From NCBI GenBank assembly GCA_030747595.1, contig JASLKK010000004.1:62001-126000 (forward strand): a DNA stretch of 64,000 nt, read 5' to 3'. The notes beneath the pieces are model-generated. The model saw only the letters and a program-made list of their open reading frames with translations. It did not search any database and was not told the origin of the DNA. Origin of the DNA: Acidimicrobiales bacterium (lineage in GTDB: Bacteria > Actinomycetota > Acidimicrobiia > Acidimicrobiales > MedAcidi-G1). Shown one piece after another: positions 20,695-36,547 of this stretch (its first letter is position 1; each line of letters opens with the position of its first letter). The position numbers were made by a program, and so were the translations under genes.

Positions 20695-21084
20695 TGGTGG
20701 AGCTGGGGGGAATCGAACCCCCGTCCGTCGAAGGGTGACCGTGCGTGATACGACCGTTCCCGAGACTGTGGCTTAATGGCTGCCACCCCGCCGGGTCGGG
20801 CGGGCCACGAGGGCCCCGCCACGGGGTCTTTCCCCCGGGTCAGCGTTCTTTCACGCCGTCAGCAGTCTGTCCCAGCTGTCTCCACCGCTTCTGTTGCCGG
20901 GTTGCGGTGGACCGACCCCGCGTGCCGTTACCGGTCGCGATGACTCTCGGTCACCTGACTAGGTCAGGCGGCGAGAGCGAGATCGTCCGTCTTGGCGTCT
21001 CTGTTGGTGCCCCGTTTAAGGAGTCTGGGCCACTCCGGTCGCACGTCACGACCACTGCAATCGGCGTCGAAACCGATCAGCCCC
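20695..21084 (-). ncRNA. ssrA: tmRNA (transfer-messenger RNA)
   Basis: The 5' end GGGGCTGATCGGTTTCGAC at 21084 downward and the 3' end GTTCGATTCCCCCC-AGCTCCACCA ending at 20695 form the tRNA-like domain, with CCA encoded. Length is 390 nt. The tag frame, 20964-21011 on the minus strand, reads GTNRDAKTDDLALAA followed by TGA, with the typical -LALAA protease signal. With SmpB it releases stalled ribosomes and tags the nascent chain. smpB lies 1.5 kb away on the same strand. The 3' end is a common site for genomic-island integration. Confidence 0.95.
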
Positions 21085-31509: not shown

Positions 31510-31988
31510 GAGGAATCCGTGCCTTGGAGTCGTCGATCGGCCCATCCGCCAGGGGTGGTGCCGTCGACCCGCACTCGCCGTGAGGCGAAGCGCCAACGAC
31601 CGTCAATCACCCGGTAGGCATCCTGGTAGCGGCCCCAGTGGTCCACGCCCTGATCGGTCATGACCGTGAAGTAGGCATGACCCGAGGCCTCTGTCGGTCC
31701 GTCAACGGTAATAGCGGGTGCCGCGGTGTGGTGCTGGAGGTAGCGGGGGCTGGTTGACCCGTCGTCGGAGGTGTCGGAGGACCCGCCGGCGACCGAATCA
31801 CGAGTACCGGTGAAAATGGTACGGATCTCGTCAACGCCGTCGTAGGTACGTCCATCACCGACGTCCATGACCGCATCGTCGGCGAACAGGGCCATCACCT
31901 CGTCAAAACGGCCCCGGTCTCCGTGGGCGTTGTACGAGGCGACCAGGTCGCGGATCTGTTCGCGGGCGTCAAGTTCCCAGGCCTCCAC
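31506..31988 (-). CDS. SnoaL-like/NTF2-fold protein (first)
   Basis: A 160-residue NTF2-fold protein with EQIRDLVASYNAHGDRGRFDEVMALFADDAV and a later GRYQDAYRVIDGRWRFASRRV. It is a paralogue of the next gene. GTG 31988 has AAGGAG 4 nt upstream and is preferred to long in-frame extensions that are Ser- and Pro-rich antisense to the divergent gene. It heads a three-gene overlapping run that ends with aceK. Confidence 0.82.
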   Translation of the reverse strand: MEAWELDAREQIRDLVASYNAHGDRGRFDEVMALFADDAVMDVGDGRTYDGVDEIRTIFTGTRDSVAGGSSDTSDDGSTSPRYLQHHTAAPAITVDGPTEASGHAYFTVMTDQGVDHWGRYQDAYRVIDGRWRFASRRVRVDGTTPGGWADRRLQGTDSS

Positions 31989-32031
31989 GCGGCTCCTTCC
32001 GGGGATGGGGACCCCACTAGCGTGCCCGACG

Positions 32032-33240
32032 ATGAGCGACCTCCACGATATCCGACGCCGATTTCCCGGGATTGCCACAGGAGGTGCCTTTGAGGCGGTC
32101 TCTGGGAAAGGCTGCGAATGGGCCCGATTCGACGGCCCGGCGGGCACCCAGGTAGTCGACGTGGCCATCGAGGCGGCGGCCGAATGGCAGCGCAGTGGAA
32201 ACAACGCCAACTCGCACGGGGCGTTCGCCGCGGCCGCTGCCTGTGACGCACTAGTGGACCGGACCAGCGCGGTCATGGGCCGCCTTCTGGGAGTCGACCC
32301 GACAGGCATGGTGTTCGGGCCCAGCACGACGGCCAACATGATGGCTCTGACACGGGCCATTGGACGGAGTCTGGGCCCTGACGACGAGATCGTCTGCACA
32401 ACCTTGGACCACGATTCCAACGTGGCGCCCTGGCTGCTGCTGGCCGCTGATACCGGGGCCACGGTCCGTATGGCCGAGTTCGACTCGGCCACCGGTCGCC
32501 TCAGGGTCGACGCCGTCACATCCCTGATCGGACCGTCGACCCGCTGGGTGGCGGTCACCGGGTCATCCAACGCGGTGGGGACCGTTCCCGATGTCGGCGC
32601 CATCACCCGGGCCGCCCACGAGGCGGGTGCCCGCGTGGTGGTCGACGGCGTTCACCTCACGCCCCACCGGCCCGTCGACGTGGCGGCCATCGGGTGCGAC
32701 GTCTTTACCACCTCGTCCTACAAGTGGTACGGGCCGCACGCCGGGATTATGTGGGTGCAGCCCGACCTGCTTGACGACCTTGAGGCCTACAAGGTGCGAC
32801 CGGCGCCTGAACGGGGACCTGGGCGTCTCCAGTACGGCACGCCCTCATGGGAGGCGCTGGCTGGCATCGAGGCCGCAGCGGACTTTCTTCTGGACGTCGG
32901 TCTCGACGTCATCGCTGCGTCCGAGGCGGAACGGTTCGCTCGTCTGATCGGTGGCCTGCACGCCATCGACGGCGTCCGGGTGGTCGGACCACAGGATGTG
33001 GCGGACCGGGCACCCACGCTCATGTTCGAGGTGGCCGGCCAGACGCCGGTAGCGGTTTCTGAACGGCTGGCGACAGACCGTGTCGCCGTCTGGGACGGCC
33101 ACAACTACGCCGTGGAGGCGATGGGGCCGCTTGGACTGGACGTCGAGGCGGGCGCCGTGCGGGCCGGCATCAGCATCTACACCACCGATGACGACGTGGA
33201 CCGCCTGCTGGCTGCAGTGATCGACCTCGCCGCGACATGA
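32032..33240 (+). CDS. Class V aminotransferase, cysteine-desulfurase-like, without catalytic Cys
   Basis: A 402-residue PLP protein of the SufS-like VC1184 subfamily. The PLP lysine is K231 in TTSSYKWYGPHAG, and VVVDGVHLTPH carries the cofactor Asp and His. The desulfurase Cys found in SufS of this window (GHHCAKP) is replaced: the matching segment here is GHNYAVE, so persulfide formation is unlikely. TAGCGT at 32018-32023 lies 8 nt before the ATG. It is followed 19 bp later by an SDR gene on the same strand. The reaction is unknown. Confidence 0.85.
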   Translation: MSDLHDIRRRFPGIATGGAFEAVSGKGCEWARFDGPAGTQVVDVAIEAAAEWQRSGNNANSHGAFAAAAACDALVDRTSAVMGRLLGVDPTGMVFGPSTTANMMALTRAIGRSLGPDDEIVCTTLDHDSNVAPWLLLAADTGATVRMAEFDSATGRLRVDAVTSLIGPSTRWVAVTGSSNAVGTVPDVGAITRAAHEAGARVVVDGVHLTPHRPVDVAAIGCDVFTTSSYKWYGPHAGIMWVQPDLLDDLEAYKVRPAPERGPGRLQYGTPSWEALAGIEAAADFLLDVGLDVIAASEAERFARLIGGLHAIDGVRVVGPQDVADRAPTLMFEVAGQTPVAVSERLATDRVAVWDGHNYAVEAMGPLGLDVEAGAVRAGISIYTTDDDVDRLLAAVIDLAAT

Positions 33241-35421: not shown

Positions 35422-35500
35422 GTGGCGACCTACTGTGGCGAGATGCCATCGGATACCGGTGGCGTTAGATCACGAAACAGGTACGGGAGGGGGTGAACCC

Positions 35501-36547
35501 ATGGTGGAGAATCGCCGGCTGACCCAGTTCAGCCATGGCGCTGGTTGAGGCTGCAAGCTCGCCCCCGGTGAGCTGGCGCACGTCGTGCGCCGTTTGGCAC
35601 CCGTCAACCATCCTGACCTGCTCGTTGGCAGCGCCACCGGCGATGACGCCGCGGTGTGGCGTCTCGACGACCAGCGCGCTCTGGTGGTGACCACCGACTT
35701 CATCACCCCGGTCGTCGATGACGCACGGATGTGGGGTCGCGTGGCGGCAGCCAATGCGGTCTCCGATGTGTATGCCATGGGTGGCCGTCCGCTGCTGGCG
35801 CTCAACCTTGTGGGGTGGAACAGCGAGGAGCTGTCGACTGACCTGTTGGGTGACGTCCTGCTCGGAGCGCAGGACGTGGCCGACGCGGGCGGGTTCGTGA
35901 TCGCCGGGGGCCACACGGTCGACGACCCGGAGCCCAAATTCGGCCTGGCTGTCGTCGGTGAAGCCGATCCCAACCGACTGCTCACCAACGCTGGCTTCCG
36001 GCCCGGCGACGTCCTGGTTCTGACCAAGCCGTTGGGCGTAGGGGTGATCACCACGGCTATCAAGCAGGGCGACGCTCCGACTGACGTGATCGATGCTGCG
36101 CAGGCCTCGATGACCCGTCTAAATGCGGAGGCGGCGACGGTTGCTCTGGGCTGCGGGGCCACGGGTGCCACCGACGTAACGGGCTTCGGTCTGCTGGGCC
36201 ACCTGGGTCGGGCCGTGGTCGAATCGACGGTGGACGCCACCATTGAGGTGGGTGCGGTGCCCCTGTTGCCCGGTACCCGGGAACTGGCAGAGTCCGGCGC
36301 CATGCCCGGAGGCAGTCGCCGAAACCTGGACTGGGCCGATGACCTCCTCGACAGGGGCGGCTTCGGCGACCTCGATGCGTTGCTCATGGCCGATGCCCAG
36401 ACCTCGGGGGGTCTGGTGTTCGGCGTGGCTCCCGACCGGGCTGACGAGGCGCTGGTTGCGCTTGCAGCCACCGGCCACGTCGCGGCGGTTGTCGGACATG
36501 TGGTGGCTCGAGGCAGTGATGGTTCCCATCGCCTTCGATTGGTCTAG
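35501..36547 (+). CDS. selD: Selenide, water dikinase; selenoprotein with in-frame UGA
   Basis: Makes selenophosphate from selenide and ATP. The frame from ATG 35501 reads MVENRRLTQFSHGAG, then TGA at 35546-35548, then GCKLAPGELAHVVRR, exactly the SelD active-site region, where TGA stands at the position of the catalytic Cys (residue 16). The open frame continues to 36547, giving 348 residues, normal SelD length, with GDDAAVW and GGHTVDDPEPKFGLAVVG. ATG 35501 has GGGAGGGGGTGA upstream. A standard caller would start at 35585 and lose the active site. A hairpin follows the UGA. selA, selB and tRNA-Sec are not in the window. Confidence 0.93.
35556..35574 (+). promoter_or_regulatory. Candidate bacterial SECIS hairpin in selD
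   Basis: AGCTCGCC (35556-35563) pairs with GGTGAGCT (35567-35574), one G-U pair included, around CCC. It begins 8 nt after the UGA, with its apex about 16-18 nt downstream, a spacing compatible with SelB recruitment. The loop does not show the E. coli fdhF loop sequence. Confidence 0.55.

Follow-up and report, generated by a model that had tools for sequence, protein, structure and literature searches.

A selD gene with a predicted selenocysteine codon and two conserved hairpins in a family of Acidimicrobiales

Introduction

The selD gene of the window—by which the whole analyzed stretch of 64,000 nucleotides is meant—carries a TGA triplet within its reading frame. The locus raises the question of whether this triplet is a stop, an error, or a codon for selenocysteine (Sec), and, in the last case, which part of the mRNA would mark it as such. 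Sec-containing SelD is a long-known family, of which the selD of the window is a new member. SelD is among the most widespread selenoproteins of an ocean survey, according to the available part of PMC2398784, and appears in the table rows of Symbiobacterium and Rubrobacter under Actinobacteria in the part of PMC1794560 that was available. In the literature searched, no prior report was found of selenoproteins of Acidimicrobiia or of a Sec formate dehydrogenase in this group.

The selD gene and its in-frame UGA

The gene and the features at its 5′ end are as follows:

35486..35496, + strand: Shine–Dalgarno-like stretch GGAGGGGGTGA, 5′ of the selD start (direct reading of the sequence)
35501..36547, + strand: selD (selenide water dikinase), encoding 348 aa with Sec predicted at residue 16 (TIGR00476, PF00586, PF02769, and E. 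coli SelD 3u0o)
35546..35548, + strand: in-frame UGA, predicted selenocysteine codon, aligned with residue 17 of E. coli SelD (frame, homolog codons, and alignment)

The frame starts with ATG 35501, features the TGA as codon 16, and runs to the next in-frame stop, TAG 36545–36547. The sequence-only reading of this locus had described SelD on both sides of the TGA and a ribosome-binding site 5′ of the ATG. The latter is recognized by eye as a GGAGG-type motif at 35486–35490, and the former is borne out by the profile match: with one residue placed at the UGA, the product matches TIGR00476 across this position, over residues 6–313, with 363.7 bits (E 7e-109) against a curated cut-off of 125 bits. 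Both AIR synthase-related domains—the N-terminal PF00586 and the C-terminal PF02769—are matched as well. The best solved relative is 3u0o_A (E 8e-75), which we take to be the E. coli SelD protein. Residue 5 of the query is aligned with residue 6 of the chain, and the alignment continues ungapped up to the UGA, placing residue 16 on residue 17 of 3u0o_A—presumably the catalytic Cys17 of E. coli SelD. The UGA was also proposed to sit at the active-site Cys, and the alignment agrees with this. Residues 16–19 read U-G-C-K and form the UxxK motif.

A plain ORF caller puts selD at 35585–36547 with a GTG start and 320 aa, so that the catalytic loop is lost. This output would suit a pseudogene broken by a nonsense codon or a shorter SelD that starts at GTG 35585 and lacks the catalytic loop. 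However, a SelD without that residue is without its catalytic Cys or Sec. The stretch before the UGA (LTQFSHGAG in the window) is kept in frame across the TGA loci with few substitutions, and the remainder of the frame 3′ of the UGA is open and conserved, with 96% identity to the nearest relative. A broken or shortened gene is extremely unlikely in view of these features.

The UGA codon among SelD homologs

The codon at this position was compared in 130 SelD loci: 30 from the search of relatives, 20 chosen at the order or family level, and the best 80 of 580. These loci encode 128 different proteins, and a few records may be one organism twice. The codon is TGA in 62 loci, TGC in 39, TGT in 29, and nothing else—a share that is no estimate for SelD at large, because the loci were picked as best matches to the SelD of the window. 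The 100 genomes searched are the window's own and those of 99 relatives. The SelD match contains TGA in 61 and no TGA in 18, and no match is counted for the remaining 21, the weak hits of G056 and G057 at 5e-5 being scored as no SelD. The named relatives in the window's family are MedAcidi-G2B, recorded as a marine actinobacterium, and other Acidimicrobiales bins. TGA-SelD occurs in 44 of the 47 genomes of this family (own genome included, and G042 by a fragment only). None of the 47 has a Cys-form SelD, and the three without a SelD match are incomplete.

That the TGA is an error of sequencing or assembly, in place of a true TGC or TGT, was named beforehand as a finding that would undo the claim. 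The genome of the window is a draft assembly (2.46 Mb in 84 contigs, 95.87% complete), and 68 of the 130 homologs do have TGC or TGT at this position. However, the same codon is conserved as TGA in the other 62 loci, which include many from other species, and throughout nearly the whole family, which leaves an error at this site barely conceivable.

Mapped onto a quick tree of the 130 SelD proteins, the Sec label can be explained by 6 changes, compared with 43.6 in shuffles; well supported branches demand 3 of the 6. The Cys-form proteins of L053, L061, L080, and L081 are placed among the Sec forms, partly at unresolved forks, as expected from the Sec-to-Cys conversions of SelD described in the available part of PMC1794560. 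L053 is probably a natural conversion of this kind: its source genome, G058, retains selB and a TGA-containing FdhA, and hairpin 2 (see below) is lost, with 4 of 7 pairs and an MFE of 0. In G073, the selD frame shows an additional TGA, which proved to be the normal stop of that gene.

The Sec-decoding machinery

The genome search for selA, selB, and tRNA-Sec(UCA) that had been proposed along with the original observation finds all three in the window's genome, on contig C2. The tRNA-Sec with the anticodon UCA scores 66.9 bits (cut-off 47), selB features the C-terminal SelB winged-helix domain, and selA adjoins selB. Across the 100 genomes, selB lies over the cut-off in 55 of the 61 with TGA-SelD, 14 of the 18 whose SelD has no TGA, and 4 of the 21 without SelD—that is, in 69 of 79 genomes with SelD versus 4 of 21 without (Fisher p 5e-9, related genomes being counted singly). 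Five of the six TGA-SelD genomes that have no selB over the cut-off are 69–88% complete, among them G067 with a 579-aa selB-like frame at 230.6 bits, just under the cut-off; the sixth, G096, is 92% complete. The four genomes with selB and no SelD (G004, G030, G037, and G056) are drafts that are 70–85% complete, and G056 is one of the two with the weak SelD match.

An open frame, and nothing more, speaks for an altered code in which UGA stands for Trp or another amino acid genome-wide. Against this, UGA terminates 27 of the 38 long ORFs in the window (at least 250 aa, greedy pick, uncurated), which argues for local recoding and not for reassignment. The aligned codon in the 68 other homologs encodes Cys and not Trp, and the sole UCA-anticodon tRNA in the stretches scanned, which make up part of the genome, is the tRNA-Sec. 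A reassigned UGA can be given next to no credence. The claim that the organism decodes UGA as Sec is supported instead by selA, selB, tRNA-Sec(UCA), the residue-17 position, and the family-wide occurrence of the codon.

Two hairpins downstream of the UGA

Two RNA structures follow the UGA within the coding sequence:

35556..35574, + strand: hairpin 1, first hairpin and putative spacer, 8 bp with the 3-nt loop CCC, starting 7 nt after the UGA (fold and conservation in Sec rows)
35575..35591, + strand: hairpin 2, bacterial SECIS element, 7 bp with the loop GUC (or the 5-nt loop CGUCG), at a distance of 33 nt from the UGA (fold and conservation in Sec rows)

A hairpin after the UGA had been noted from the sequence. 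It is present, but the description was incomplete: there are two hairpins in tandem, and the one nearest to the UGA is not the SECIS element, which is the second. The alignment rows of the TGA loci (Sec rows) used for their comparison number 61—the 62 loci minus L047, which contains N—and 52 of them are distinct. The bacterial SECIS model, as given in the available part of PMC13188914, has a loop of 3–9 nt, a stem of 4–16 bp, a G within the first two loop positions, a spacing of 16–37 nt, and an energy of at most −7.5 kcal/mol. Hairpin 2 agrees with every part of it: The loop has 3 or 5 nt with an early G followed by U, the stem 7–8 bp, the spacing is 33 or 32, and the energy is −12.3 or −9.9 kcal/mol. 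All 52 distinct Sec rows have GU in this loop. Hairpin 1 was rejected as a SECIS element, since its loop is CCC in the window and has no G in the first two positions in 49 of the 52 distinct Sec rows; lying between the UGA and the SECIS with a C-rich loop, it differs from that published model. A hairpin alone is weak evidence, because 47 of 3000 random window sites have a SECIS-like hairpin that equals or exceeds hairpin 2 in stability (−12.3 kcal/mol); the evidence is conservation. G-loop hairpins of −6.8 kcal/mol or better with at least 6 bp occur at 379 of 3000 such sites.

In the 52 distinct Sec rows, the pairs are kept in 91.3% of cells for hairpin 1, 94.8% for hairpin 2, and 92.9% for both together. 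Changes on both sides of a pair are seen in 5 of the 8 pairs of hairpin 1 and 4 of the 7 of hairpin 2 (9 of 15 in total). The cells changed on both sides amount to 46 over both hairpins, a number as high being reached in 0 of 500 shuffles, and likewise none of 500 shuffles reached any of five measures. Shifting the structure by 1–3 columns drops the paired cells to 30–41%. RNAalifold, with no structure supplied, recovers five pairs of hairpin 1, the inner ones, and all but one of the seven of hairpin 2.

Stability beyond the coding requirement was judged by synonymous recoding of 25 of the 61 Sec rows, each less than 72% identical to the others. Hairpin 2 has a mean MFE of −9.26 compared with −2.72 in the recodings (z −14.9) and hairpin 1 exceeds its recodings with z −8.1, while the 68 Cys rows show no excess stability (z +1.4 for hairpin 1 and −0.5 for hairpin 2) and neither do the 11 actinobacterial Cys rows (−0.1 and −0.9); owing to the kinship of the rows, these z values and the above shuffles overstate independence—a fault that the Cys control shares. 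Individually, the rows ranking under 5% of their respective null number 9 of 25 for hairpin 1 and 18 of 25 for hairpin 2; pooled codon usage makes these counts 10 and 20. The row of the window itself ranks at 0.054 for hairpin 1 and at 0.008 for hairpin 2, so that the window by itself gives no significance for hairpin 1. Both hairpins are conserved beyond coding need in the Sec forms and not in the Cys forms. They accompany TGA and not the Cys codons, which also speaks against a sequencing error.

Further probable selenoprotein genes of the genome

The sequence-only reading had suggested that other selenoprotein genes may be split by in-frame TGA. Searches of the own genome with five protein families add no fewer than seven genes in which a known Sec motif contains an in-frame TGA:

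UGA at L157:4668: FdhA, motif UHAP
UGA at L158:2100 (−): SelW-like gene, motif CVPU
UGA at L159:2647 and L160:204 (−): two PrdB/GRDB-like genes, motifs UPVC and UPLC
UGA at L161:1621: Prx, motif TPGU
UGA at L164:1603: Trx/Prx-like protein, motif UGC
UGA at L168:1597: AhpD-like gene, motif CHYU

These motifs appear for their families in the available parts of PMC2398784 or PMC13188914. The GOS marine survey, as far as the available part of PMC2398784 goes, gives as Sec families SelD, SelW-like (CxxU), PrdB (pfam07355, UxxC), Prx (TxxU), AhpD-like (CxxU), Prx-like (UGC), and FdhA. Each of these seven families has a TGA-containing member in the window's genome; the survey deals with environmental reads, whereas a single genome is concerned here. 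The TGA lies within the family match in five of the seven further genes and just beyond the matched stretch in the two PrdB-like genes, the second of which is also near a contig end; these two are therefore the weaker cases. The searches with TIGR01591, PF00578, and PF02627 also give matches without TGA. A codon-score scan for in-frame TGA in the window, L017, and L018 missed selD itself, so that it is no evidence for an absence of further TGA sites. The profile search of the own genome for SelU (TIGR03167) gave no match; on the evidence of this SelU search, SelD most likely serves Sec only.

In selD, 33 nt separate the UGA from the loop, versus 17–21 nt for the hairpins that best fit the model in the other seven genes (limits 16–37 nt or 12–37 nt). 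The 60-nt minimum-energy fold includes this hairpin in FdhA, the SelW-like gene, and Prx and omits it in the two PrdB-like genes, the Trx/Prx-like gene, and the AhpD-like gene; with four of seven outside this fold, these spacings are candidates.

The locus of the Sec-containing FdhA, L157:4431–9077 (C2:257431–262077 of the own genome), features a split enzyme: The catalytic gene is without the N-terminal Fe4S4 domain, and a NuoG-like ferredoxin gene, 3′ of a NuoE–NuoF fusion gene, carries this domain as a fusion. The gene order is common to 7 of 7 loci, although in L173 the contig end cuts the Fe-S gene before the Fe4S4 domain. Among the matches listed, all 28 TGA-bearing FdhA matches with E < 1e-160 begin at profile position 40–52. 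Four weaker ones (G053, G055, G056, and G059) among those listed begin at position 2, so unsplit forms of FdhA also exist.

Neighboring genes

Upstream of selD, the window contains the following gene:

31867..33240, + strand: cysteine desulfurase-like gene, TIGR01976 (profile match; adjoins selD in genera of the family other than the window's)

In 17 loci, which belong to MedAcidi-G2B and further genera of the family, the TIGR01976 gene ends 91–221 bases 5′ of the Sec codon on the same strand, and in 3 more loci, it ends 1.3–2.3 kb 5′ of this codon. This gives a match in 20 of the 130 loci searched, many of which have too little upstream DNA; the gene is absent in eleven loci with about 3 kb upstream (L072–L082). 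In the genus of the window, an SDR gene and a CoA-transferase gene stand between the TIGR01976 gene and selD. Speculatively, the cysteine desulfurase-like protein may be a partner that delivers selenium to SelD. The window also contains a tmRNA at 20695–21084 (−) with the tag AKTDDLALAA.

A proposed mechanism of UGA recoding

As judged from sequence comparison, selD almost certainly encodes a selenophosphate synthetase with Sec at the catalytic residue 16, inserted via SelB and hairpin 2. The tRNA-Sec(UCA) would be charged with Ser, and SelA would turn Ser into Sec, using selenophosphate made by SelD. SelB would bring the Sec-tRNA to the ribosome and recognize hairpin 2 by its loop GU motif within the selD coding sequence—switching UGA 35546 from stop to Sec. 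The binding of hairpin 2 by SelB and the insertion of Sec are inferred from established knowledge of such systems.

The role of hairpin 1 is a matter of speculation: It may act as a spacer or stimulator that shortens the unusually long distance between UGA and SECIS. Folding of its 19 nt would reduce the 33-nt path from UGA to the loop to about 14 nt, near the candidate 17–21 nt of the other genes. Alternatively, hairpin 1 may slow the ribosome so that termination loses. From these distances, a two-part recoding signal in the selD mRNA of this clade—a proximal hairpin resembling the eukaryotic Sec redefinition element (SRE) and a distal SelB-type SECIS—is suggested tentatively, with the odds somewhat against it. 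Hairpin 1 could possibly reflect some other constraint on this stretch of Sec genes.

Relation to known systems and significance

The protein shares with Sec-containing SelD/SPS2 (TIGR00476) the score above the cut-off, the UGA at the catalytic position, the residues UGCK—the UxxK motif is tabulated for this family in the available part of PMC13188914—and the presence of selA, selB, and tRNA-Sec alongside. No difference was found at the protein level. The mRNA does differ: The SECIS loop lies 33 nt from the UGA, near the top of the 16–37 range, and an extra conserved hairpin is found in between. This double hairpin is the less usual part of the system and the only one for which no description was found in the literature searched; the supplement of PMC4561486, reported to contain predicted SelD bacterial SECIS elements, may already show both hairpins. 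The eukaryotic SRE and the hymenopteran readthrough element of SPS genes (available part of PMC4561486) likewise lie a few bases past the UGA and are separate from the true SECIS. However, hairpin 1 is bacterial and lies inside a SelB system, and the likeness is one of position. The SRE elements are proposed in the same available part to descend from bacterial SECIS elements, an idea on which the double hairpin bears. If it holds true, the two-part signal would correspond in bacteria to the SRE and SECIS pair of SPS genes, and it could tie SelD output to selenium supply. The double hairpin is a defined and mutable case for the long-distance action of a bacterial SECIS.

Plain annotation truncates or splits at least eight genes of the window's genome. 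SelD makes the precursor of Sec yet itself needs Sec, so its output can feed back on the selenium supply. That this actinobacterial family decodes UGA as Sec appears settled, to the extent that sequence can settle it.
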